Positions 10,722 to 38,328 of a stretch of 40,503 bases of DNA are shown here, piece by piece. The stretch's first letter is position 1; each line of letters begins with the position of its first letter. Position numbers and translations under genes: made by a program. The DNA comes from Ruminococcus sp. (lineage in GTDB: Bacteria; Bacillota; Clostridia; Oscillospirales; Ruminococcaceae): contig SVNM01000015.1 of NCBI GenBank assembly GCA_015066875.1, positions 1 to 40,503 of the forward strand, written 5' to 3'. Under the pieces are notes generated by a model. It made no database searches. It saw only the letters and a list, made by a program, of their open reading frames with translations, and was not told the DNA's origin.

Positions 10722-13700
10722 TCAGCCCCAGGGATTTGTATTGCCTGATCCTGATCCGCTTACTGCTGTTCCGCCTGAAAGTGTTCCGCCGTATGCTGAA
10801 AGCTGTGACTGGTCAAGCTCCTGGAAATATGTTGAGCCATTGAGTGTTCCGCCTGTGTAGAATGTTGCTCCTGAGTATGCTGTGCAACCTGCTACAAGGC
10901 TTGAAGCTGACTTGTCGTTGATGAAGGATACGATTACATTGCCGTTTCCGTCACAAAGTGTTACTCTTTCTCCGCCTGATAATGAGCATGATACATTTAC
11001 GGATTCTGTCATGGACGAGCTTCCGCCCATGCCTCCCATACCGCCCATCTGTGAGCCGATATTCTTGACATATACTCCGCCTGTGTATGACATTCCGCCG
11101 TCACAGTCAAATGCGTCCTGTCCGTTTGTGATTGCTATACCGCCTGTGATGCTGAGTGAGCCGTTTGAGTCATAACCGTCGTGGTCGCCTGTTCCTACGC
11201 TGATGATTGAGAAGCCACCGCTTATCTGAAGCACTCCCGCACTTGAGGAGCCTCCCATACCGCCCTGTCCGGGCCAGCCACCTGATGAACCTGAATTATC
11301 AGCTCCGCCTGCTACATTGAATGCGTCATCGGTTGATGTTACTACTGTTGAACCGCTCTTCTGATAGATATTGTAAGCCTCGATACCCTCGTAAGCCTGG
11401 TAGATTACAAGGCGCATATCGTCATATACGTTTGCATTGCCGTCGCTTCCGAGATTTACTGTTGTATCTGCGTGAAGTCCCTGATAGCCTGATGTTGTGC
11501 CCTTTACTGTGATCTGTGTTTCACCGCCGAGCATATTGATATCGCCGTTTGAGTTGATACCGTCATCGTTTGTGTGAAGCTCAATGAAACCGCCGTTTAC
11601 GTTAACTACGCCTGTAGTTGTTGTGCCTGTTTCATCATCTGTAAGACCGCCCTTGAGTCCCTTTGCGCTTCCGCTGTCCTTGCTTCCTGTTGTTTCGATA
11701 TCAAGAGTACCGCCGTTTACGTTGAGAAGCTGTGAAGCCTGTACGCCGTCGCCGTAAACATTCATATTGATTGTTCCGCCGTTGATATCAACAACACCAT
11801 ATGTCTTGTCAGCTGTTGATGCGTCCTGTGCGTTGGACTTGATTCCGTCGCCTGCTGTGGATTTAAGGTTGAGGATAAGTGTGCTGAAATCTGTATCGTC
11901 AACGTCACCTACTGTTACGCTGTCCTTACCTCTGATACAGTCATCAACAGCGTTTACTGTGATATTACCATTGTAAACCTTGAGGTCGTTCTTGCAGACA
12001 ATACCGTCACCGGCGTTGCCGTTTACTGTAAGATTACCGCTACCCTTGATCTTAAGGTCGTCACAGGAGTAGATTGCTCCCATACCGCTATCAGCGTTTG
12101 TATAGCTTGTGCCGTCTGAGATTATGTTGTCATAACCGCTCTTTGCTACGATCTGAACCTCGTCGCCGATCTGAGCTACGTAGATAGGTGAGCTCTTTGT
12201 GCTTGTAAGGTTTGCACCCATAAGGTCAAGCTCTACAACACCGTCAGCATAAGCTGTCTTGTCAACATCAACAACGATCTGTCCCTCGCTTGCTGTACCT
12301 GAAACTGAGAATACTGCTGGCTGGATAATTGTTACAACGTTGTTTGCTACTGTTGCTACTGTCTCGGGAGCGTTTGTTGATACTGTGCTTCCAAGTGTGA
12401 TTGTGTAGCCGTCTGTGGGAGTTACAATAACATCTCCTGAGCCTGAAGATGATGAAGGATTCATATCAACTGTCTCAAATGCTGTTACTGTGCCTGTTGT
12501 TGTAAATGATGTTGCTGTGTTGTTTGTATGCGAAACTGTTGCACCTGTGCTTCCGTTTGTGAGAGTGTATGTCTGTCCGTTTGCAATTGAAGCATCACTG
12601 ATAAGAACGTACATATACTTCTTGTTGGGAGCGTATGTTGTGCCGTTTACTACGATTGTGTTTGCCTTCTTCCAGCAACCGTCCTCTGTGTTTGTTGCGT
12701 CTGCAATGCAGTTGAGAAGCATTGTGCCCTGTGTTGCTGTAAGAAGTGTTGCATCAGTCTGGTTGTCTGTAGCTGTTGCAATTACAGTACCGCCTGTGAT
12801 GTTTACGCCTGTTACACCTGTGAGGCCTCTGTCACCGCCTGCTGTTACAGTACCGCCTGAAATGTCGATTGTTGTTTCAGCCTGAACAGCGTCGTTGCCT
12901 GCCTTGACTGTTACTGAACCGCCTTCGATTGCTACGTTACCCTGTGTTGACTTGATGCCGTCGCCTTCAGCATCAATGTTGAGAACAGCTGTCTCCTTGA
13001 CTGTAACCGAGGTCTTGCCTCTTACACCGTCTTCAAGAAGTGTCTCGATATTTACTGTACCCTCTGTGAATTTGACATCGTTGTTGCACTGGATTGCATA
13101 CTGTGTGTTTGCTGTGATGTTAAGAGTACCTGTGCCCTTGATCGTAAGATCGTCCTTAGCTTCGATAACGCCTGTCTCAAGGTAATCTCCGCTGTATGCA
13201 ACTGTTCCGTCGCTGAGCGTATTTACTGAGCCTTCCATAAGGTTGATTGATGTATTCTCTGCATTCTCAACCCAGATTGCAGGAGCTGTTGTGCCTGTGA
13301 TGCTTACTCCGTTAAGGAAAATCTTAACTGTCTCAGCGTCAACTGTCTCGTCGGGAACATTTACGATAATCTGTCCGTCATCAAGAGTTCCGTCTACATA
13401 ATACTCGCCTGATGCTGTGATCGTTACTGTTGTTCCGTCAACCACAAGATTGTCGCCCTCGGTTTCAATGTATGTATTCTTAAGGTGGATATATGCAATT
13501 GTTGTCTGAGGATCCTCGCCTTCAAGAACTGACTCCGGAAGTGTTGTAATTACCTGTGCTACCTTCTTCTGAATTGAAAGAGCGTCGGATACATCTACGC
13601 CGTCGCCCCTCTGATAAACATCGGCATTGTCCTTTGCCTGATCTTCAAGAGGATAAAGTCCGGGGTTTGATGCGTGGCTCATAACCTTGACTACGTCGTC

Positions 13701-13853
13701 CATTTTTACGAGTCCGTCAAGTGTTGCGTCGCCGTAAACCGTTGTTGTTTCTGTTGATGCAGATACGCTGAGTGATACTGCCGGCATTGCTGATGTGAGT
13801 ACACACAGCGCTGAGAGACCGGCAACCACTCTCTTAAGTCTGTAATTTTTCAT
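10722..13853 (-). CDS. Secreted DUF4353 (Cthe_2159-like) carbohydrate-binding protein with N-terminal dockerin
   Basis: A 1043-residue exported protein. The start at 13853 is preferred because AAGGAG lies 9-10 nt upstream; the longer frame to 13892 has no ribosome site. Residues 1-32 form a signal peptide. Residues 40-100 form a dockerin: two EF-hand-like loops, DATLDGLVKMDD and DVYQRGDGVDVSD, joined by helices, so the protein should dock to a cohesin scaffold. Two DUF4353 regions follow (about 105-480 and 490-960), each made of repeated GG(T/S)(V/I)-type beta-helix rungs (VNGGTLDIET, ISGGTVTAGG). DUF4353 is related to the cellulose- and pectin-binding Cthe_2159 beta-helix. Gly-rich loops (GGMGGMGGSSS) lie near the end. 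A dockerin at the N-terminus rather than the C-terminus is unusual. It is divergent from a VTC/DUF4956/DUF4353 operon with a matching promoter box. Confidence 0.9.
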   Translation of the reverse strand: MKNYRLKRVVAGLSALCVLTSAMPAVSLSVSASTETTTVYGDATLDGLVKMDDVVKVMSHASNPGLYPLEDQAKDNADVYQRGDGVDVSDALSIQKKVAQVITTLPESVLEGEDPQTTIAYIHLKNTYIETEGDNLVVDGTTVTITASGEYYVDGTLDDGQIIVNVPDETVDAETVKIFLNGVSITGTTAPAIWVENAENTSINLMEGSVNTLSDGTVAYSGDYLETGVIEAKDDLTIKGTGTLNITANTQYAIQCNNDVKFTEGTVNIETLLEDGVRGKTSVTVKETAVLNIDAEGDGIKSTQGNVAIEGGSVTVKAGNDAVQAETTIDISGGTVTAGGDRGLTGVTGVNITGGTVIATATDNQTDATLLTATQGTMLLNCIADATNTEDGCWKKANTIVVNGTTYAPNKKYMYVLISDASIANGQTYTLTNGSTGATVSHTNNTATSFTTTGTVTAFETVDMNPSSSSGSGDVIVTPTDGYTITLGSTVSTNAPETVATVANNVVTIIQPAVFSVSGTASEGQIVVDVDKTAYADGVVELDLMGANLTSTKSSPIYVAQIGDEVQIVAKSGYDNIISDGTSYTNADSGMGAIYSCDDLKIKGSGNLTVNGNAGDGIVCKNDLKVYNGNITVNAVDDCIRGKDSVTVGDVDDTDFSTLILNLKSTAGDGIKSNAQDASTADKTYGVVDINGGTINMNVYGDGVQASQLLNVNGGTLDIETTGSKDSGSAKGLKGGLTDDETGTTTTGVVNVNGGFIELHTNDDGINSNGDINMLGGETQITVKGTTSGYQGLHADTTVNLGSDGNANVYDDMRLVIYQAYEGIEAYNIYQKSGSTVVTSTDDAFNVAGGADNSGSSGGWPGQGGMGGSSSAGVLQISGGFSIISVGTGDHDGYDSNGSLSITGGIAITNGQDAFDCDGGMSYTGGVYVKNIGSQMGGMGGMGGSSSMTESVNVSCSLSGGERVTLCDGNGNVIVSFINDKSASSLVAGCTAYSGATFYTGGTLNGSTYFQELDQSQLSAYGGTLSGGTAVSGSGSGNTNPWG

Positions 13854-13910
13854 TGTAATCATTCTCCTTAAATGCGTTTTTTTCGCGTGCATTTACTTTA
13901 GTGTAATTTG

Positions 13911-14225: not shown

Positions 14226-14257
14226 TTAAGATTATTTTAAGATTTATGTAATATAAT
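14226..14257 (+). promoter_or_regulatory. Promoter of the VTC-DUF4956-DUF4353 operon with duplicated TTAAGA box
   Basis: TTAAGATTATTTTAAGA (14226-14242), nine bases, then TATAAT (14252-14257): the same 17-mer and spacing as in the divergent promoter at 13911-13942. The -10 overlaps the first in-frame ATG of the open frame (14256), so translation must start further down. Confidence 0.72.
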
Positions 14258-14330
14258 GACTGTAAACTTGAAGGAAAGGAGCGTGGTCCTGAAAGGTCTG
14301 TTTCCTCAGCAGTGCGTTTCAGGAAAATTT

Positions 14331-15080
14331 ATGGCTATTAATACTTTTGCACGTAAGGAAATTAAATTCTTACTCAGTATGGAACAGTACGAAAGTCTTA
14401 TGGAAGAAATACCTAAGCATATGAACCCCGATAAGTATTGCGTAGGCGGTAAGGAATACGGTGTTTATAATATCTACTACGATACAAGTGATGATTTCCT
14501 TATCAGAGAATCTATAAGCAAGCCATATTATAAAGAGAAAATCCGTCTCAGAAGCTATTACTCTCCCGCTTCTCCCGATGATACGGTATTTCTCGAAATC
14601 AAAAAGAAAATCGGAGGCATTGTCGCTAAAAGACGTGTTACTCTCACCCTTGCCGAGGCTGACGAGTACCTCCTTAACCGCAGTAAGCCCGACAGCTCTA
14701 AATACATAACCAAACAGGTTTTTACCGAGCTTGACGCGTTCCTTAATATGTATGATATTGCTCCCAAGCAGTATATCAGCTATCAGCGTACTGCTTTCTT
14801 CGGTAAGGATAACAAGGACTTCCGCCTTACCTTTGACAGAAAAATTACCGAGCGACGAACTGATCTCTCTCTCAGTCAGCCAAGCTTCGGAAATTTCATT
14901 ATCGGTGCTGATCAGAGACTTATGGAAGTTAAAGTATCGGATTCCGTTCCTGAATGGCTTATCAATAAGCTTTCGGAACTGCAGATATATAAGACAAGCT
15001 TTTCAAAGTACGGAAAGGCTTACCAGAATTATATTTATGATAAAATTATGACGAATCGGAGTGTTTTGGCAAATGTTTAA
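14331..15080 (+). CDS. VTC-domain (polyphosphate polymerase-like) protein
   Basis: 249 residues forming one VTC domain, a tunnel-shaped triphosphate-binding fold. Motifs: FARKEIKFLLSMEQY at the start, the basic strand YKEKIRLRSYY, FLEIKKKIGGIVAKRRV, LRLTFDRKITERR and LMEVKVSDSVPEWL, with the alternating Arg/Lys and Glu expected to line the tunnel. In eukaryotes the domain makes polyphosphate from ATP; in bacteria such genes usually sit with DUF4956 and CotH-type genes and their product is not settled. The start at 14331 is taken because AGGA lies 6 nt upstream; the ATG at 14256 lies inside the -10 box. In the leader, 14287-14294 and 14317-14324 are 8-base inverted repeats that would mask this Shine-Dalgarno. 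It overlaps the next gene by 8 nt. Confidence 0.85.
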   Translation: MAINTFARKEIKFLLSMEQYESLMEEIPKHMNPDKYCVGGKEYGVYNIYYDTSDDFLIRESISKPYYKEKIRLRSYYSPASPDDTVFLEIKKKIGGIVAKRRVTLTLAEADEYLLNRSKPDSSKYITKQVFTELDAFLNMYDIAPKQYISYQRTAFFGKDNKDFRLTFDRKITERRTDLSLSQPSFGNFIIGADQRLMEVKVSDSVPEWLINKLSELQIYKTSFSKYGKAYQNYIYDKIMTNRSVLANV

Positions 15081-15828
15081 AAATGGTTTCTTTGGCAACG
15101 TTCTTACTGAAAGCGGTACTGATGCTACTGCGGATTTCCTCACAGGTGCTTCCACCACCCCCGCTATCGGCGATATCAGCGCAGGCGATTTCTTCCTCTG
15201 CGTTTTCGCTTCACTTATTATCGGTTTCCTTATCAGCTCTATCTATATGTTTACCCACAGAAAAGAGGGTTACGCTCAGAGCTATGTTATGACTATCATT
15301 ATGCTTCCCTCAATAGTTACTCTTATACTTCTGCTTATCAATACTACAGCAGGAGCACTCAGCCTTGCAGGTGCGTTTACTCTTGTAAGATTCAGAAGTA
15401 CCCCCGGCGACCCTAAGGACATTACATACGTTTTCTATGCTATGGCTGTCGGTGTTGCCTGCGGTATGGGCTATGTGGGATTCTCAATCGTGTTCTTCAT
15501 TATTATGGGTATCGTGGTTGTTGCTCTTAACTACTTCGATTTCGGCGGTTGCAAGCTCCGTCATATGACCCTTAAGATCACTATTCCCGAAAACCTCGAC
15601 TACAAGGGCGTTTTCGATCCCGTTCTCAAGAAGTATACAAGCTTCTACAAGCTCAGAAGAATTAAAACTACCAACTTCGGTACTCTTTTTGAGCTTATCT
15701 ACAGCGTTGACGTTTATGAGGATATGGACAGCAAAAAGTTTATTGACGAGATCCGTGCGCTCAACGGCAACCTTAATATCAACCTCGTTTACTTCAAGTA
15801 TGACGATAAAATCTACGAACAGCAATAA
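15073..15828 (+). CDS. DUF4956 membrane protein
   Basis: 251 residues from ATG 15073, which overlaps the stop of the VTC gene; this suggests translational coupling and a shared complex. Four membrane helices are visible (about 38-58, 72-92, 97-116 and 128-160). The family signature GAFTLVRFRSTPGDPKDITYVFYAMAVG lies between helices 2 and 4. After it comes a soluble cytoplasmic domain of some 80 residues (LKITIPENLDYKGVFDPVLKKYT ...). DUF4956 proteins accompany VTC-domain proteins in many Firmicutes; the pair may form a membrane machine making or exporting a phosphate-containing polymer, but this is inference. GTG 15061 is an alternative start without a ribosome site. Confidence 0.87.
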   Translation: MFKNGFFGNVLTESGTDATADFLTGASTTPAIGDISAGDFFLCVFASLIIGFLISSIYMFTHRKEGYAQSYVMTIIMLPSIVTLILLLINTTAGALSLAGAFTLVRFRSTPGDPKDITYVFYAMAVGVACGMGYVGFSIVFFIIMGIVVVALNYFDFGGCKLRHMTLKITIPENLDYKGVFDPVLKKYTSFYKLRRIKTTNFGTLFELIYSVDVYEDMDSKKFIDEIRALNGNLNINLVYFKYDDKIYEQQ

Positions 15829-15833
15829 TATCT

Positions 15834-15864
15834 TGTCAGGCTGGGTTTTGCACTCAGCCTGACA
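15834..15864 (+). terminator. Strong hairpin between DUF4956 and the lipoprotein gene
   Basis: A perfect 10-bp stem TGTCAGGCTG (15834-15843) / CAGCCTGACA (15855-15864). The T-rich stretch comes only 15-20 bases later, so termination is probably partial and the hairpin may set the ratio of upstream to downstream message. Confidence 0.6.
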
Positions 15865-15909
15865 GTGCTATTTATACACTTTTTTATTTTGTAAAGGACA
15901 GTGATTAAA

Positions 15910-17319
15910 ATGAAAAATTACAGAAGAATTCTCGCTCTGCTCGCTTCATTCTCTTTGATGTTCTCCGCGTTTTCCTGCGGTCAGGAGACTGCTGTGGAAT
16001 CAAGTCTTTCTGAGGACAGCATTGTTGAAATCCTCGATGAAACCAAGGAAAACATTGAGTCTGACGAAAACAATAATAACAATGATGAGGATACTACAGA
16101 CTCTACCGGTGCAGATGAAAATGAAAATGCCGACAACAGCGAGACTACTACTGCTCCTGCAGATGACAACAACGAAAATACAGTCACTACTGCCCCGGCT
16201 GATAATTCAAACGAACAGACTGTAACTACTGTTGCTGACAACAACACCAACAACAATACTCCCACAGCTACTACTGCTGTCAATAATACTCCTTCAGGCA
16301 ATGCTCAGGTTACTACTGCTGTACAGGGAGGCTCTTCTTCAGGCGGAAATAAGGTTACTACAACAACAAAGGCTAAAACTCCTGTTGTTACTACCACAAC
16401 AACTACTACCGCTGAAGTTAAGGTCTACTCTGCTGAGGTCGTTCTCGGCGGAAGTCCTGTAATCTCAGGAAGCAATGTTACGGCAAACGGCTCAGGTATT
16501 ACTATCACAGGCGGTGGCGACTACCTTATCTCAGGCTCTGTTGCAGACGGTATGATTGAGGTAAATACCACCGAAAAAGTCAAAATCTATATGAACGGCG
16601 TTACTATCACAAACTCTTCGGGGCCCGCTATTCAGGTTACTGACGCTAAAAGATTTATTATGGTTCTTATGGAAGGCACTACTACAAAGCTCACCGACGG
16701 CGGAAGCTCTACCGTTTACGACGGTGCACTCTTCTCCAACGATACTGTAGAAATCAAGGGCAAGGGTTCACTGGAGATCACCTCAAACAACGCTCACGGT
16801 ATCTCAAGCGATGACGATATTGTTATCGAAAACGGAAACATTACCATTAACTCCAAGAAAACAGGCCTTATGGCCAACGACGATATCACTATCAACGGCG
16901 GTAAACTCAACATCAAGAGCGGTACAAACGGTATGAAGTCAAAGGGTACTATGAATATCAACGGAGGATATTCTGTTATCACAGGCGGAACCAAAGAGGA
17001 AAAAAGTGCTGTTTATGCTGCAGGAGCTCTTAATTACACAGGCGGATACCTCTACGCTGCAGGAAATGCTATGACAGCTCCTACAAGCAGTGCTTCACCC
17101 TATGCCGTTGTAGGCTACACAAGCGGTTGTACTGCAGGAAGCAATGTGGCTTTCAGAATAAATGGCTCTCAGGTTGTTTCGTTTACTCCCAACAATGCCT
17201 TCAGATGCGTTATGATTCTGTCGCCTGATTTAACTTCAGGAAGTACTCTCGGAGTTTCTGTCGGCACAGCTTCAAATGATTTCACAATTTCAGACATAGC
17301 AAATATATTCACAGTTTAA
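15910..17319 (+). CDS. DUF4353 carbohydrate-binding-type lipoprotein
   Basis: 469 residues from ATG 15910 (AAAGGA upstream; GTG 15901 is too close to it). The N-terminus MKNYRRILALLASFSLMFSAFSC is a signal with probable lipid attachment at Cys23; the lipobox AFSC is not ideal. Residues about 30-170 are a low-complexity Asp/Asn/Glu then Thr/Ala-rich linker with imperfect repeats of TTAPADxNNExTVTT, typical of a wall-spanning spacer. Residues 175-469 form a DUF4353 beta-helix with rungs such as DDIVIENGNITINSK and DDITINGGKLNIKSG. It shares the domain, and even the opening MKNYR, with the divergent dockerin protein, so the pair are paralogues in different surface anchoring modes. It is probably the third gene of the VTC operon. 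Confidence 0.86.
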   Translation: MKNYRRILALLASFSLMFSAFSCGQETAVESSLSEDSIVEILDETKENIESDENNNNNDEDTTDSTGADENENADNSETTTAPADDNNENTVTTAPADNSNEQTVTTVADNNTNNNTPTATTAVNNTPSGNAQVTTAVQGGSSSGGNKVTTTTKAKTPVVTTTTTTTAEVKVYSAEVVLGGSPVISGSNVTANGSGITITGGGDYLISGSVADGMIEVNTTEKVKIYMNGVTITNSSGPAIQVTDAKRFIMVLMEGTTTKLTDGGSSTVYDGALFSNDTVEIKGKGSLEITSNNAHGISSDDDIVIENGNITINSKKTGLMANDDITINGGKLNIKSGTNGMKSKGTMNINGGYSVITGGTKEEKSAVYAAGALNYTGGYLYAAGNAMTAPTSSASPYAVVGYTSGCTAGSNVAFRINGSQVVSFTPNNAFRCVMILSPDLTSGSTLGVSVGTASNDFTISDIANIFTV

Positions 17320-32886: not shown

Positions 32887-33846
32887 TCAGAATGCGTCGT
32901 AATCCTTTACAACTTCCTTTGCGTCTGCTTCCATTCCAAGTCTGTCAAGAAGCTCCTGAGCTGCGTTATAGCCCATTTTCTTCTGTCTGTTGTTCATAGC
33001 TGCAACCTCAAGGATTACTGCTAAGTTTCTGCCGGGCTTTACAGGAATTGTAAGCGACGGCACCTTTACGCCAAGAAGTGATACATACTGGGTATCTACG
33101 CCCATTCTGTCGTAAATCTTCTCAGAATTCCAGAGCTCCATTTCTACTACAAGGTCAATCTTTTCTGTAAGCTTTACAGCTCCCATACCGAAAAGTCTTC
33201 TTGCATTGATAATACCGATACCTCTCAGCTCAAGGAAGTGGCGGATATTATCGGGCGAGCTTCCTACAAGGCTGATGTTTGATACCTTTCTGATTTCTAC
33301 AGCGTCGTCGGCAATAAGACGGTGTCCACGCTTTACAAGCTCAATAGCTGTTTCACTCTTACCTACACCGCTTTCGCCTGTGATGAACACACCTTCACCG
33401 TATATTTCAATGAGTACGCCGTGACGTGTAATTCTTGGTGCAAGATTAAGGTTAAGGAACGCGATAAGGCCTGACATAAAGTTTGATGTGCTCTCCTTAC
33501 TTCTGAGAAGCGGAACCTCATACTCCTTTGCAAGCTCAAGCATCTCCGCAAAGTAAGGAAGCTCTCTTGTAATTATAAGCGCAGGAAGTCTCTGGGCAAA
33601 TAAAAGCTGGAGACGCTCTCTTCTTGTCTTTTCGTCGATTGTTGAAAGGTATGCGAACTCCATCTTGCCTATAATCTGAATTCGCTCGGGATTGAAGTAC
33701 TCGTAAAATCCCATAAGCTGGAGTCCCGGACGGTTTACGTCGTTTTCCTCGATCATTATTTCAGTTGCGTCCTTGTGGATAAAAATCGTTTCAAGCTTGA
33801 ACTCGTCAATTACTTTCTGAAGCGATACCTTGAATTTTTCAGCCAT
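32887..33846 (-). CDS. hprK: HPr kinase/phosphorylase
   Basis: A bifunctional enzyme that phosphorylates Ser46 of HPr with ATP or pyrophosphate and reverses the reaction with phosphate; it is the sensor for catabolite repression in Firmicutes. 319 residues. N-terminal domain 1-130; catalytic domain with P-loop GESGVGKS at 157-164, GHRLIADDAVEI after it, and the HprK signature ELRGIGIINARRLFGMGAV. AGGAGAA precedes the ATG. The gene heads the hprK-murB-rapZ-whiA-dnaE run. The 72-base gap from the DUF4015 gene holds two small hairpins. Confidence 0.97.
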   Translation of the reverse strand: MAEKFKVSLQKVIDEFKLETIFIHKDATEIMIEENDVNRPGLQLMGFYEYFNPERIQIIGKMEFAYLSTIDEKTRRERLQLLFAQRLPALIITRELPYFAEMLELAKEYEVPLLRSKESTSNFMSGLIAFLNLNLAPRITRHGVLIEIYGEGVFITGESGVGKSETAIELVKRGHRLIADDAVEIRKVSNISLVGSSPDNIRHFLELRGIGIINARRLFGMGAVKLTEKIDLVVEMELWNSEKIYDRMGVDTQYVSLLGVKVPSLTIPVKPGRNLAVILEVAAMNNRQKKMGYNAAQELLDRLGMEADAKEVVKDYDAF

Positions 33847-33918: not shown

Positions 33919-35106
33919 TTATCCTATTATATATGATGTGTAGCCGTATTCGGACAATACCTCCATAGCGTCAAGAAGCGACGCGGTATCCTTGTTTGCT
34001 CCCGAAAAGCGTACTGCTATGTTATAATCGCCCAGTCTGTGCTGGATAAGTCCGATTATCTTTGATGCATTTTCAGCGTCTGTTCCTGTGAATTCATACA
34101 CTGTGCCTACCGACTCAACCGCATTTCCCATTTCAGTAAAGTCAATATTCAGTATAAGAGTGTTTACATCAAGAAGCATGGGCTGTATTACTTCATAATT
34201 GCCAAGAAGAAGGTCTACCGCAGATACCTCAAGCATTGTTGCGGTATTTCCCTCTATCATTGTGTTATACATCATATTCACCAGCGAGGTGAGTCCCAGA
34301 TAGCGCTCTCCGCTGTTGACCTCGTCCCCAAGAAGAGCTAAGTCGCTTTCACGGAAGGGCGGGAATATAACATCTGTACATACTGCCTTGTCAAAATCGG
34401 CAGAAGCTATCTCATAGGCTATTTCGCCCAGATACTCCTTTGTAGAGTCCGCAAAGGGAGATACCCAGGGTTTTCCGCCGTTTTCCACGCTGTTGTCTAT
34501 CCAGCGTGAGCCGTCATCTGTTGTTCTGTAGCCTGCTTCGGGATATGTCTGCGGAAGTATATTGTCGTCAAGCAGACTGATAGACGCTGTGGGTCTGTAG
34601 CCTGCGCTTCTGATTTCATATGTTATCTCAGACAAAGTAAGCTGAGACTGAACTGCCCCACACATCTGAGCTTCATAAACTCCGCTTGCATAGTAGATTT
34701 CTCCACCGCTGACCTTAAGGGGTACGGTGATATATTCTATTCCCACTGCTTCGGGAACATTCTCAAGGGATGCTCTGAGCGATGATACTCCCGCAAGATC
34801 AGACGGCTTAAGAGTATATGAGGTATAAAGCTCTGCGTTTTTATTCTCTAAAACAGGCATTGTGGAAGCTGTCTGACCTGTACTTCCCTCTTCGGGGATA
34901 TTCTCTGTCACAGAGCTTACATCGCTGTCGCCCTGCTTCTTTGAATAGTTAAGCAGAGGCTCTGCCACGCTGTAGCCCAGAAAGCACAGACCGCCCACCA
35001 GCAATACTGTAAGCGCTCCTGAAAAGAATTTACCAACGGGAGTCTTACCGTAAAAATTCTTTTCCTTTGTTTTGTAGATTTTCCTTCCTTTATTCTTGAA
35101 TTTCAT
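33919..35106 (-). CDS. Membrane-anchored DUF4015 glycoside-hydrolase-like protein
   Basis: 395 residues. A basic cytoplasmic N-terminus (MKFKNKGRKIYKTKEK), one membrane helix at about 30-48, an Ser/Glu-rich linker to about 85, then an extracellular TIM-barrel-like domain. The barrel shows ITVPLKVSGGEIYYAS, PTASISLLDDN and PWVSPFADSTKEYLGEIAYEIASADFDKAVCTDVIFPPF, which correspond to the DUF4015 putative glycosyl hydrolase pattern (PWLNPY...Y...IAxExxxLGFDEIxFDYxRFP). Here the usual FDYIRFP is CTDVIFPPF, keeping one Asp. It lies 38 nt after the rnfA-like gene and in the same operon direction. The substrate is unknown; a cell-wall glycan would fit the location. Confidence 0.8.
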   Translation of the reverse strand: MKFKNKGRKIYKTKEKNFYGKTPVGKFFSGALTVLLVGGLCFLGYSVAEPLLNYSKKQGDSDVSSVTENIPEEGSTGQTASTMPVLENKNAELYTSYTLKPSDLAGVSSLRASLENVPEAVGIEYITVPLKVSGGEIYYASGVYEAQMCGAVQSQLTLSEITYEIRSAGYRPTASISLLDDNILPQTYPEAGYRTTDDGSRWIDNSVENGGKPWVSPFADSTKEYLGEIAYEIASADFDKAVCTDVIFPPFRESDLALLGDEVNSGERYLGLTSLVNMMYNTMIEGNTATMLEVSAVDLLLGNYEVIQPMLLDVNTLILNIDFTEMGNAVESVGTVYEFTGTDAENASKIIGLIQHRLGDYNIAVRFSGANKDTASLLDAMEVLSEYGYTSYIIG

Positions 35107-35144: not shown

Positions 35145-35717
35145 CTATTTAAGCGAATAGACTGCCATTGATATTATTCCCAGATATATCAGCATTGCGG
35201 GAAAGCCTCTGAACGAGCCCGGTACTGATGAGGAGTTAAGCCTCTTGTATGCGACTGTAAGAATCATTGCCGCAATAATAAATCCTATTCCGGCTTCAAA
35301 GCCGAAAATCAGATATTCAGATAATGTAAATTCTTTTCCCTGTATAGCCTCGTTCTGTGTTATGGTAAAAAGTGTTCCCATTACCGCACAGTTATAGGCT
35401 GAAAGGTGAATGTATTTTTTTGATGTGTCAAAATGCTTTCTTCCCACAAGATAAAGAACTGCAAGAGAAAGTATGTAGATTATTCCCACCGCAAGAGTGT
35501 AGAAAAGCAGTGTGAATTTTTCAAATCTGCCGTCTGTTACGGAATTCACCAGATATGCACACACCGAGCCTGCTGTCGTAAACAGCGTTATTACCGTTGC
35601 TGTGCCGATAAGATTCTTTCTGCTTCCCGATGCTATGAACAGCGTACTTGTTCCAAGTGCGTTTACAAGTATAAGATTAATTGCAAGTATCCCTATTATT
35701 TCACTGACAAGAAACAT
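35145..35717 (-). CDS. rnfA: RnfA/NqrE-like membrane subunit lacking one cluster Cys
   Basis: 190 residues from ATG 35717 (GAGGGG 9 nt upstream; GTG 35726 is an alternative), with six membrane helices. It has the Rnf/Nqr fold: INLILVNALGTSTLFIASGSRKN near the N-terminus, HLSAYNCAVMGTLF in the middle and VPGSFRGFPAMLIYLGIISMA at the end. In true RnfA/NqrE the first block reads LG(I/M)C(P/T)FL, where Cys binds the iron-sulphur centre in the membrane. Here it is LGTSTLF, so Cys is replaced by Ser24. The second Cys (Cys110, in NCAVMG) is kept. The start overlaps the rnfE-like gene by 17 nt. Called RnfA by family; a redox role is doubtful. Confidence 0.85.
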   Translation of the reverse strand: MFLVSEIIGILAINLILVNALGTSTLFIASGSRKNLIGTATVITLFTTAGSVCAYLVNSVTDGRFEKFTLLFYTLAVGIIYILSLAVLYLVGRKHFDTSKKYIHLSAYNCAVMGTLFTITQNEAIQGKEFTLSEYLIFGFEAGIGFIIAAMILTVAYKRLNSSSVPGSFRGFPAMLIYLGIISMAVYSLK

Positions 35718-36339
35718 CTGCTTCACCCCTCGGTTCGTTTTTTGCTTTTTCTGTTACAGAGCGTATCTTCCTGTATATTCCGCAGAGTATTCCAAGGAAG
35801 ATAAATCCGCCGAACGGACTTGATATTCCCGATATGAGAAGCTCCATATCCACCATACGGTTGTTGATTGTTCCGTAGGCAAGAAGCTCTCTCACAAAGC
35901 CTGTTACAAGCATTACAGCGTCAAATCCGAGTATATAGAACACAAGCGACGCTGTCATCTTCATTTTCTTCATACGGAAGAATTTGACCTCGGTCTGATG
36001 AACTATCAGCGAGTTTACTGCTATAAGGGGGAAATATATTCCCACACGCTCGATTACCGAAGGGAAAAGCCCTTCAGCTAGCATTCTTACAGGTATGTAC
36101 ACAAGTGATGAAATTACTGCGTATGTTATAACTCTTACTGTGTAGGGAATTTTTTTCGGTACAAATGAGCTTATCAGCACCGAGAAAAATGTTATCAGCG
36201 AAAATGCGTATATAAGCGCTATGGAATTTTTCACTGTATCTCCGCAGATTATTACGGGAGATATTACCATACAGGCGGATAATACCGTATTATCCCCAAG
36301 AAGTCCCGAAAGCACCGATGTCGGACGATTATTCTTCAT
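35701..36339 (-). CDS. rnfE: RnfE/NqrD-like membrane subunit lacking both cluster Cys
   Basis: 212 residues, six membrane helices. Rnf/Nqr features: DNTVLSACMVISPVIICGD at the first helix, YFPLIAVNSLIVHQTEVKF in the middle, and the conserved VRELLAYGTI followed by PFGGFIFLGILCGIYRKI. In RnfE/NqrD the first block is N-P-x(6)-GxCxxLAVT and the second NCxxxGRAEAFA. Here the first Cys aligns with Ser27 and the second with Ser110, and GRAEAFA has become HQTEVKF. Both iron-sulphur ligands of this subunit are thus missing. GGAGGTGAA precedes the ATG, which overlaps the rnfD-like gene by 11 nt. Confidence 0.83.
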   Translation of the reverse strand: MKNNRPTSVLSGLLGDNTVLSACMVISPVIICGDTVKNSIALIYAFSLITFFSVLISSFVPKKIPYTVRVITYAVISSLVYIPVRMLAEGLFPSVIERVGIYFPLIAVNSLIVHQTEVKFFRMKKMKMTASLVFYILGFDAVMLVTGFVRELLAYGTINNRMVDMELLISGISSPFGGFIFLGILCGIYRKIRSVTEKAKNEPRGEADVSCQ

Positions 36340-37612
36340 TTCCGTTCACCTCCGGCTCTTCTTCAAAGACTTCTGCGGTATCCTCTGCAGAATATTCTGA
36401 ATTCTCCTCTTCATACTCATCAAAAGAGGTCTCAGTCTCTTCTACGTCCATAAGCTCTTCAGAGGTCACGCAGGGATCTTCTGTCTTTAATTCGACGTTC
36501 TCGCAGGTCTCATCTGCATTTTCCTCCTCGGAAAGCTCTTCTTCCTCAGTCAGACCGCCCTCTGCTATTGCTGATATTTCAGCAATTGCAGTTTCGGTTA
36601 TCTCATCGGCTGTCTGCTCTTCAGGCTGAGCTTCCTGTACAGGAGCGATCTCCTCCCCGTCTGACGGCTGTGAAGCCTCTTCCTGTACGTGAGCGTCTGC
36701 ATCTGCTATTCTCTTTTCAAGATTTTTCATTCCAAGAGCTACAGGTGTGAACAATACGGACATTATGATCATTACGTTTTCCTGTCCTGTTGTAATCAGC
36801 ACCACGTATGACGCAAATGCTATGAACAGGCCATAGAAAAATGCAAGATAATTTCTCTCAGGAGCTATTCTTGTGTCGGATATTATGTAAACCGATGCAA
36901 AAAGCACCATATTTGTAGATAATACGTACTTCAGCGACTGCATTGCATCTCCGCTGAGGGGACATATTATGCACATTATCACTGTACCCGCAATTACTCC
37001 CGTAAATGCTCCGAAAGATATGTCACGTCTGAAAAGAAGCACCACTGCGCTTACCGCAAGAAGAAGTATGCACATTCCTCCCATAGGTCCCGCAAGGTTT
37101 CCCATAAGTATTTCAAAGTCAGACGCTGACAATATTCCTGTTGTATTCAGAGTGTATGAAGCAGAATGTACAAGCTCTGCCGACTCACTCATCAGGTCAA
37201 TTCTGCTATAGGGCTGTGAATATGAAAGAAGCTCCTTGCCCCACGATGTAAGCACAAAAATGTATGCCACCGCTACGGGCGAGAATATCATATTATGCCT
37301 TCCGCCAAAAATATTCTTCGCTATTATCACTGCCACAAGACAGGCAATCGCGGGAATTCTGAAATCAATTACCGCAGGCATCATCAGTGCAATGAGAAGT
37401 CCGTCTGATATACAGCTCAGGTCATCTGCCGTAAATCTGCGCTTCATCATTCTCAGTGACACAAGCTCTGCAACAAGAGATACTGCCATACACACTACAG
37501 CAAGAAGCAGTGCTCTTGCTCCGTAGCCAAAAACCGCCATAAGCTCAAGAGCTGTCAGCGTTATCATCACATCAAGCCATATCAGGCGCTGTGTTTTCGC
37601 TTTTTTCTGCAT
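36329..37612 (-). CDS. rnfD: RnfD/NqrB-like membrane subunit with long acidic tail
   Basis: 427 residues. Residues 1-295 carry about nine helices with the RnfD pattern: LSCISDGLLIALMMPAVIDF, AKNIFGGRHNMIFSPVAVAY, MGNLAGPMGGMCILLLAVSAVVLLF and YIISDTRIAPERNYLAFFYG. In RnfD, a Thr in an (S/T)xAT motif before LGNxGG carries covalent FMN. The matching place (about 153-165) reads TLNTTGILSASD, so the canonical motif is not evident. Residues 300-427 are a very acidic Glu/Asp-rich tail with no hydrophobic segment, absent from ordinary RnfD. The start codon shares one base with the rpe stop (TGATG). No rnfB, rnfC or rnfG gene is adjacent on either side. Confidence 0.85.
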   Translation of the reverse strand: MQKKAKTQRLIWLDVMITLTALELMAVFGYGARALLLAVVCMAVSLVAELVSLRMMKRRFTADDLSCISDGLLIALMMPAVIDFRIPAIACLVAVIIAKNIFGGRHNMIFSPVAVAYIFVLTSWGKELLSYSQPYSRIDLMSESAELVHSASYTLNTTGILSASDFEILMGNLAGPMGGMCILLLAVSAVVLLFRRDISFGAFTGVIAGTVIMCIICPLSGDAMQSLKYVLSTNMVLFASVYIISDTRIAPERNYLAFFYGLFIAFASYVVLITTGQENVMIIMSVLFTPVALGMKNLEKRIADADAHVQEEASQPSDGEEIAPVQEAQPEEQTADEITETAIAEISAIAEGGLTEEEELSEEENADETCENVELKTEDPCVTSEELMDVEETETSFDEYEEENSEYSAEDTAEVFEEEPEVNGNEE

Positions 37613-38265
37613 CAGTTATTTTCCTTTAATTTTTCCGCAGATTTTTTCATATCTGCTGATTTGAACAGGTAGCTTCCCGAAACAAGGATATTTGCTCCCG
37701 CTGATTTTACAAAGGGGGCAGTTTCAGAGTCTATTCCGCCGTCTACCTGTATATCTGTGCTGAGTCCGAGCTCAGTTGCCTTATTGCGGATAAGTCTTAC
37801 TTTTTCCACCATATCATGCATAAAGCTCTGTCCGCCGAAGCCGGGCTCTACCGTCATAACAAGCACCATATCCACCAGCGGAAGATACTCATAAACTGCC
37901 TCTGCAGGAGTCGCGGGCTTTACTGATATAGCTGTCTTTACGCCTGTTTCACGTATAGCACGGATTGTATCAGCCGTATCGCTTTCGCTTTCCAGGTGAA
38001 AGGTAATAATGTCTGCTCCGCTTTCAGCAAAGCGCTTTACGTATTTCAGAGGATCTGTTATCATCAGATGCACGTCAAGAGTCATATCAGTTATACCGTC
38101 AATAGCTGAAAGTATGGGAAGTCCATAGCTTATATTCGGCACAAAAACTCCGTCCATTACATCAAAATGAAGCATATCTATTCCACTTGCTTCAAGACGT
38201 CTTACCTCTTTCTCAAGATTAAGCATATCCGCACTGAGTATTGACGCCGAAACCAGATTTTTCAT
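37612..38265 (-). CDS. rpe: Ribulose-phosphate 3-epimerase
   Basis: Interconverts ribulose 5-phosphate and xylulose 5-phosphate in the pentose phosphate pathway. 217 residues, a TIM barrel. Motifs: SASILSADMLNLEKEV, the metal-site block DMLHFDVMDGVFVPNISYG, DVHLMITDP, LVMTVEPGFGGQSFMHDM and QVDGGIDSETAP. The ATG at 38265 was chosen over the upstream frame to 38310 because it gives the family-typical MKNLVSASIL. It is the first gene of the run containing the Rnf-like trio and overlaps it by one base. Confidence 0.97.
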   Translation of the reverse strand: MKNLVSASILSADMLNLEKEVRRLEASGIDMLHFDVMDGVFVPNISYGLPILSAIDGITDMTLDVHLMITDPLKYVKRFAESGADIITFHLESESDTADTIRAIRETGVKTAISVKPATPAEAVYEYLPLVDMVLVMTVEPGFGGQSFMHDMVEKVRLIRNKATELGLSTDIQVDGGIDSETAPFVKSAGANILVSGSYLFKSADMKKSAEKLKENN

Positions 38266-38328
38266 ATTATCACTTCTTCCGTTTTTTTGGATTCTGTACA
38301 TTGCCTGCACAAAACCTCACACACTTTT

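Follow-up and report, generated by a model that had tools for sequence, protein, structure and literature searches.

A paralogous RnfD-RnfE-RnfA-like membrane module of Ruminococcus with most iron-sulphur ligands replaced, and its possible decoupling from redox chemistry

Results

Gene content of the locus

The DNA analysed here (the window) is a stretch of 40,503 nucleotides from Ruminococcus sp. (contig SVNM01000015.1). Its minus strand carries three overlapping genes for membrane proteins that are homologues of RnfD, RnfE and RnfA, as judged by Pfam matches and by alignments with solved chains. We call them D', E' and A'. D' (36329..37612, 427 amino acids) is RnfD/NqrB-like and matches PF03116 (NQR2_RnfD_RnfE) at 4.2e-38. 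E' (35701..36339, 212 amino acids) is RnfE/NqrD-like, A' (35145..35726, 193 amino acids) is RnfA/NqrE-like, and they match PF02508 (Rnf-Nqr) at 2.1e-23 and 3.4e-16, respectively. All three fail the NCBIfam cut-offs for rnfD (82.9 against 207.05), rnfE (60.8 against 213.4) and rnfA (46.2 against 229.3), reaching about one fifth to two fifths of them. A' starts with GTG and has an ATG at codon 4. D' ends in an acidic C-terminal tail of about 125 residues (36329-36700), which is strongly variable among relatives and longest in the window, where D' has 427 residues as compared to 310-400 in 40 other rows.

The gene order on the minus strand is rpe, D', E', A', a DUF4015 gene and an hprK-like gene. 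The rpe gene (37612..38310), encoding ribulose-phosphate 3-epimerase, is the constant upstream neighbour of the cluster and probably does not belong to the complex. The DUF4015 protein (33919..35106, 395 amino acids) matches PF13200 at 5.2e-9, with 36.1 bits against a gathering score of 27. The gene downstream of it (32887..33846) is one that we take to be hprK-like, and it is a constant neighbour in the genus loci read. No rnfB, rnfC or rnfG was found in the window cluster. Gene reading and Pfam matches thus agree with a preliminary description, made from the sequence alone, of an overlapping D-E-A trio between rpe and a DUF4015 gene without rnfB, rnfC and rnfG.

Canonical Rnf in the same genome

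Four Rnf-Nqr matches were found in the window's genome, an assembly of 107 contigs that is 88% complete. Two belong to the window (83.6 and 59.8 bits), and two form a canonical pair on contig C97 (222.3 and 190.9 bits). Genes on C97 exceed the NCBIfam cut-offs for rnfC (425 bits), rnfD (301), rnfE (250), rnfA (266) and rnfB (115). Its rnfG is below the cut-off (64.4 against 102), with FMN_bind over its own cut-off in the same frame, and an ApbE-like gene scores 82.5 bits against the apbE cut-off of 498. The operon reads rnfCDGEAB, and C97 holds the only RnfC_N and FMN_bind matches of the genome. Because this complete operon is present elsewhere, D'E'A' of the window are paralogues, and a split canonical Rnf complex is ruled out. 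The preliminary description had reasoned that rnfB, rnfC and rnfG elsewhere without a second D, E and A would indicate an ordinary split complex. This does not apply, since C97 carries a canonical cluster with its own D, E and A.

A canonical RnfE match also occurs in 39 of the 46 Ruminococcus genomes with E'. This would suit the idea that D'E'A' are accessory or alternative subunits which join canonical RnfB, RnfC and RnfG under some condition. We therefore looked at independence in ten genus genomes searched with PF02508. Only the E'/A' pair was present in G002, G040, G016 and G059, and only the canonical pair in G009; G006 had one piece of 123 bits, and G026, G027, G038 and G051 had no PF02508 match. 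G002 (99% complete, 5% contaminated) had no RnfC_N match, and its single match to FMN_bind falls in a frame of 468 codons. Canonical RnfA/E and RnfC_N matches are also missing from G040 (90% complete, 7% contaminated), but this genome has three FMN_bind matches, and one of them lies in an RnfG-sized frame of 200 codons. G016, with rnfC and an RnfG-sized FMN_bind gene together on one other contig, and G059 (86% complete) were set aside as module-only cases. On the one strong case of G002, the module is probably able to persist where canonical Rnf is missing. Both G002 and G040 argue against accessory subunits, and a core without iron-sulphur (Fe-S) ligands could hardly carry an electron. We consider this explanation highly unlikely.

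Iron-sulphur ligand positions

In Clostridium tetanomorphum Rnf, the metal ligands are described as Cys25 and Cys113 of RnfA and Cys26 and Cys109 of RnfE, and the intramembrane Fe-S site of Rnf/Nqr is called strictly conserved (PMC9588780). Pairwise alignments with solved Rnf chains put A' Ser27 on the first RnfA cysteine and A' Cys113 on the second, and E' Ser27 and Ser110 on both RnfE cysteines. The window keeps one of the four cysteines of the intramembrane [2Fe-2S] site, and the other three are serine. An earlier reading by eye, with three ligand cysteines replaced by serine and one RnfA-like cysteine kept, is borne out by these alignments; its A' Ser24 and Cys110 are our Ser27 and Cys113, its count having begun at the ATG of codon 4.

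The replacements are fixed among named Ruminococcus loci. In these loci, which are the best 80 from a scan of named genomes, A' has Ser27 and Cys113 in 80/80 and E' has Ser27 and Ser110 in 79/79. When sequences of the window's family (f1) and of two further families with the paralogue (f21 and f22, see below) were aligned, the first A cysteine was present in 0/68, the second A cysteine in 37/68, the first E cysteine in 5/69 and the second E cysteine in 0/69. In the trio loci of the window's family, the first A cysteine and both E cysteines are always lost and the second A cysteine is partly kept. The first E cysteine, in the stretch LGLCP, is still present in five E' of f22, and all four ligands were present in none of the f22 loci examined.

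Other cysteines were considered as ligands. One candidate, E' Cys32, shows no variation in the genus-level alignment but lies five residues past the ligand position and is lost in most other genera (outside Ruminococcus it is present in L077 and L078), and L084 has a cysteine one place off the second E position. The alignments do not support either, nor the possibility raised in the preliminary description that other cysteines occupy the ligand positions.

Flavin and cation sites of D'

C. tetanomorphum RnfD is described as carrying flavin mononucleotide (FMN) on Thr153, with Asn124 and Asp248 lining the riboflavin pocket and Asp248 as a possible Na+ site (PMC9588780). Pairwise alignment with the solved chain places D' Ser111 at the riboflavin Asn position and Asp246 at the proposed Na+ site. 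In the named Ruminococcus loci, Asp246 is found in 78/78 and Ser111 in 76/78 D' sequences, and Asp or Glu occupies the Na+ site in 62 of the 67 D' of f1, f21 and f22. The kept Asp246 favours a putative cation path over a pure scaffold.

The canonical FMN motif was not found in the window D', which matches neither the strict form, (S/T)GA(S/T), nor the loose form, (S/T)xA(S/T). The earlier remark that an (S/T)xAT motif is not evident therefore stands, with the linker register uncertain: pairwise alignment puts Ala145 at the FMN position and MAFFT puts a Ser there. The loose form occurs in the linker of 16/20 canonical proteins, 10/64 paralogues and 35/78 named Ruminococcus D', and the strict form in 4/20, 0/64 and 4/78, respectively; both are weak tests. 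The paralogue counts cover 64 of 67 D' rows, three rows without a located linker having been dropped, and the four strict Ruminococcus matches lie downstream of the FMN position. Thr is found at the aligned FMN position in 20/20 canonical proteins vs. 7/67 paralogues, with the register unsure. On these alignments, the canonical flavin acceptor of RnfD appears not to be kept in D'.

We also followed the positions that are at least 95% conserved in the canonical proteins (57 in A, 35 in E and 49 in D). In the paralogues these are retained at a mean of 0.36, 0.44 and 0.50, respectively; L116, L118 and L128, being either duplicates or the broken reading of f21, and D' sequences with at least 430 residues were dropped for this comparison. 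The least-kept positions include the first A cysteine (0.00), both E cysteines (0.07 for the first, 0.00 for the second) and, with the register unsure, the FMN position (0.10). The Asp248 position, with a retention of 0.82, is among the better kept.

Distribution and selection within Ruminococcus

E' was found in 46 of 60 sampled genus genomes, including the window's own; 45 are at 48-100% identity and one is a 66-residue piece. The order rpe-D-E-A-DUF4015-hprK was present in 39 of 40 genus loci fetched, the fortieth being a more diverged second set of G020. This second D-E-A-DUF4015 set (L075, contig C147) has 30-34% identity to the window and lies beside a normal set; it may be contamination, of which 2% is reported for G020. 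Ruminococcus is the label of 76 of the 80 named loci, and many of these are R. flavefaciens, including FD-1, 007c and ATCC 19208. L290 is labelled Alistipes sp. yet has the Ruminococcus gene order, and is probably mislabelled or from a mixed metagenome assembly. The cluster is complete from rpe to rapZ in 68 of the 80 loci (one with rapZ in two pieces), and in the other 12 the stretch ends within the cluster.

Ratios of nonsynonymous to synonymous substitution (dN/dS) were calculated by the Nei-Gojobori method for pairs with dS of 0.1-1.2. The medians are 0.169 for A' (111 pairs), 0.159 for E' (70), 0.090 for D' (30) and 0.111 for DUF4015 (33). The module is under purifying selection in Ruminococcus. 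The core lacking most Fe-S ligands, as proposed in the preliminary description, is thus a fixed and selected feature of the named Ruminococcus loci. A decaying pseudo-operon left after duplication could account for the lost ligands, for a divergence exceeding that of canonical Rnf and for an in-frame TGA in the E' reading of f21 (G273). The window and the Ruminococcus loci read have open frames, however, and pseudogene decay in Ruminococcus is contradicted by dN/dS medians of 0.09-0.17 and by residues fixed across 80 loci. We find decay hardly credible.

An RnfC-like fourth member in other genera

RnfD-like matches were found in 186 of 198 genomes of the window's family, most with at least two; this count pools paralogue and canonical proteins. 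Forty family loci were fetched, comprising 34 D'-E'-A' trios, 4 canonical operons or parts of them, 1 D alone and 1 C-D-E. In the 34 trio loci, rpe lies upstream in 34/34, a detected DUF4015 gene downstream in 30/34, and an RnfC-like gene, which we call C', between rpe and D' in 12/34. In several genera, rpe and the cluster are separated by an opposite-strand gene that by eye looks MecA-like, as in L080 (3978-4553), L096 (7209-7763) and L103 (6549-7229).

In a sample of 147 genomes of the order, the paralogue was also found in f21, without C', and in f22, with C'; the best 30 loci were 14 paralogue and 16 canonical. C' is present in at least 20 of 100 f22 genomes (19 read, and G274). The f22 loci read have C' in 19/19, D' in 18/19 and the whole C'-D'-E'-A' set in 16/19. 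C' is thus a fourth cluster member in other genera of the family and in f22. Four f22 sets (L210, L212, L213 and L218) have C'-D'-E'-A' without DUF4015 and are followed by another gene, presumably SpoVT/AbrB-like. Wider searches with the C' profile are blind to modules without C'. In a class sample of 243 genomes, this profile found nothing above the canonical range outside f22, and the best 30 loci read comprised 3 paralogues, each from f22, and 27 loci whose context is canonical. The top score among 199 genomes sampled from the phylum was 205.9 bits vs. 204.9 for the best canonical-context locus; judged by score, these phylum matches may be canonical. Canonical RnfE-like frames of about 460-525 codons, with about 250-300 extra residues, were seen in L131, L137 and L143 (G277, G256 and G291) of family f4.

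The C' profile aligns with solved RnfC (7zc6_C) at 7.3e-56. All eight cysteines of the two [4Fe-4S] motifs are invariant in 12 aligned f1 sequences. L086 (2613-5657) was left out of this alignment (A2) for its long tail and has the same cysteine pattern; its C' is extended C-terminally by about 640 residues, many of them Ala, Gln or charged, that look coiled-coil-like by eye, unlike the other C' proteins. Where canonical RnfC has the GxGGAGFPT loop, C' has a stretch resembling (E/D)xDGxPLYxKL. Complex1_51K scores 15-28 bits in four of five C' scanned, with no listed match in the fifth, as compared to 153 in canonical RnfC. RnfC_N is unlisted in three C' and scores 18 and 27 bits in the other two (cut-off 25.6), as compared to 96 in canonical RnfC. 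C' has apparently lost nicotinamide adenine dinucleotide (NAD) and FMN binding. The preliminary description had the subunit fold kept and the redox parts lost; this may hold in the window's lineage and does not hold for the whole group, in which C' of the relatives has two [4Fe-4S] motifs. Likewise, its term redox-inactive may fit the window's lineage and not the group as a whole.

These motifs raise the question whether the C'-bearing forms are redox-gated devices, in which a cytoplasmic donor would pass an electron to the [4Fe-4S] clusters of C' and on to a riboflavin in D', setting the conformation of a channel or transporter; the window would then be a later, sensorless version. Both motifs are kept in C', and the riboflavin Asn is present in D' in 29/34 sequences with C' vs. 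14/33 without C', kinship not being corrected for. A step between the two sites has a precedent, since in canonical Rnf the electron is described as passing from the RnfD riboflavin to the proximal RnfC cluster (PMC12174285). On the other hand, C' has neither the flavin/NAD loop nor an electron partner that is known, the connection is drawn from sequence only, and the C'-less form in Ruminococcus would be left unexplained. We regard a redox-gated device as unlikely.

Trees and the order of losses

Maximum-likelihood trees separate 71 paralogues from 17 canonical sequences for E and 76 paralogues from 20 canonical sequences for D, in both cases by a 100/100 branch. The trees have midpoint roots, some long branches and a few identical rows. 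A single origin of the paralogues is supported, its age not being fixed by the trees. With canonical RnfC scored as present, and 88 of 96 D rows labelled, the presence of C' changes three times on the D tree. The simplest reading is an ancestral C' that was lost up to three times. Because the corresponding cluster of relatives encodes an RnfC-like protein in which both [4Fe-4S] motifs are intact, the absence of RnfC from the window's lineage looks derived and is probably secondary. The redox parts were probably eroded stepwise.

The DUF4015 protein

The DUF4015 protein begins with a short, conserved basic tail (GRKIYKTKEKN). This is followed by a hydrophobic stretch, to the eye a single membrane anchor, and by a glycoside-hydrolase-like domain. 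Several residues of the tail are invariant in 61 sequences. PF13200 is matched by 30/30 members of alignment A3. The family profile matches the solved chain 4s1a, deposited as an uncharacterised protein, at 4.9e-30. Thr244 of the window replaces the Asp of the FDYIRFP stretch of 4s1a; that this Asp is catalytic is an assumption. An acid is found at this position in 14/16 C'-bearing vs. 2/26 C'-less rows. The correlation of C' with the acid (Fisher P = 2e-7) is no evidence of a functional link, since the D tree offers just one (starred branches) to three independent contrasts, and it shows no more than common descent. An active glycoside hydrolase in the window is doubtful because the acid typical of C'-bearing relatives is lost. 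The glycoside-hydrolase-like neighbour of the preliminary description is thus upheld in so far as PF13200 is over its gathering score, and is doubtful as an active enzyme.

RnfG is described as having one anchor and an extracytoplasmic domain (PMC9588780). Because the layout is the same, we infer that DUF4015 may take the place of RnfG. In another view, the Rnf fold would only anchor or place DUF4015 in the membrane as a non-transporting scaffold. The linkage in 30 of 34 f1 trio loci and the strongly conserved N-terminal tail speak for such a role. Three polytopic proteins with kept glycines, prolines and a cation-site Asp would be a costly anchor, and DUF4015 is missing beside the core in part of f22. 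A scaffold is therefore distinctly unlikely in our opinion.

Apart from the cluster, the window has at 14256-17319 and 10722-13892 a group of neighbouring genes. They are two genes which we take to be VTC-like (14256-15080) and a DUF4956-like membrane gene (15061-15828), and genes for two secreted proteins with repeated beta-type carbohydrate-binding-like segments.

Discussion

We propose that D', E' and A' form, together with DUF4015, a redox-decoupled membrane complex derived from Rnf, with a cation path and the Rnf fold but without an evident transmembrane electron path. We give this reading a probability of about 0.47. The module would descend from a second Rnf operon that was already present, and has been retained, from before the split of families f1, f21 and f22 of the order. 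This copy would have lost rnfB and rnfG, retaining an RnfC-like Fe-S protein for a time. A bitopic DUF4015 would have joined in the topological place of RnfG, with one anchor and an extracytoplasmic domain, and C' would then have been lost as well in the window's lineage, leaving D'E'A' and DUF4015. The four proteins would assemble as one complex in which D' may still pass a cation, Na+ or H+. A'E' may still rock between inward-open and outward-open states, driven by an ion gradient or a substrate and not by the redox state of an Fe-S center. Ser at three of the four ligand places could make a polar waist that is rocked by binding of a cation or substrate. The movement or a transported solute would serve DUF4015 at the cell wall. 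This suggests that an electron-driven pump has turned into something else, perhaps a transporter or a motor-like device. A more specific version, in which the redox-driven pump has become a redox-free, ion-driven transducer whose cation flow through D' rocks A'E' and drives the DUF4015 domain on cell-wall glycan, is offered tentatively.

Several observations weigh against the proposal of a redox-decoupled complex. A' Cys113 is invariant in Ruminococcus and kept in 37/68 sequences overall, and its retention of 0.54 is above the median of the canonical-invariant positions; a remaining metal role is therefore possible. Close to the FMN position, 69/78 Ruminococcus D' rows have a conserved Ser-Ala-Ser. 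In 31/79 rows, not including the window, Ser or Thr precedes it and gives a loose flavinylation match, and the loose matches in Ruminococcus come mostly from this stretch. D' of some Ruminococcus species may therefore carry a Ser-linked flavin, and these matches slightly lower our confidence. The claim of cation transport is based on one kept carboxylate and the role of the family. DUF4015 is absent after A' in ten f22 loci in which more than 2 kb of downstream sequence was examined, so it is a frequent, not obligate, neighbour of the core. Finally, the module is missing from the near-complete Ruminococcus genomes G009 (99%) and G026 (98%).

The module derives plainly from Rnf yet lacks most of the features that define Rnf, among those tested. 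It shares with RnfABCDGE the homologous D', E' and A' (and C' in relatives), an operon order of C-D-E-A and, probably, a bitopic extracytoplasmic partner encoded alongside. It differs in having no B and G, an incomplete Fe-S site in A'E' and no recognisable canonical FMN motif in D'; C' is without the NAD/FMN loop, and DUF4015 is linked instead. Na+-NQR offers a precedent: a duplication of rnf in which rnfB was lost has been proposed as its origin (PMC4014512), and NqrA, its homologue of RnfC, is described as being without redox cofactors (PMC12174285). Unlike the module, which has lost most or all of these, Na+-NQR retains the [2Fe-2S] site, the FMNs and NqrF.

The nearest published relative that we found, as far as its description goes, is a two-subunit Nqr/Rnf-like system of different content. 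These systems are described with an RnfG-like FMN domain, an NAD-binding domain and no A/E (PMC8238504; preprint PMC10979944). They are likewise a partial Rnf, with an RnfD-like subunit without the conserved flavinylation Thr. In contrast to the systems so described, the module keeps A/E and has no FMN-domain or NAD parts; their FMN-binding RnfG-like subunit with a fused NAD-binding domain was not found at the window locus. In the open-licence PubMed Central papers searched, we found no published description of the module and no paper with both DUF4015 and Rnf.

The coupling of the Fe-S redox state to ion movement in Rnf/Nqr is still argued from few structures. Selected Rnf cores without the Fe-S site, some with partial cysteine sets and an Fe-S RnfC-like subunit, form a graded series that lets coupling, ion path and conformational change be tested separately. 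For Ruminococcus and its relatives, matches to rnfA, rnfD or rnfE alone are no evidence of an Rnf complex. If our proposal of a redox-decoupled complex is true, a respiratory pump would have been recruited as a motor or transporter of the cell envelope, with living intermediates in the C'-bearing forms and the half-lost cysteine sets.

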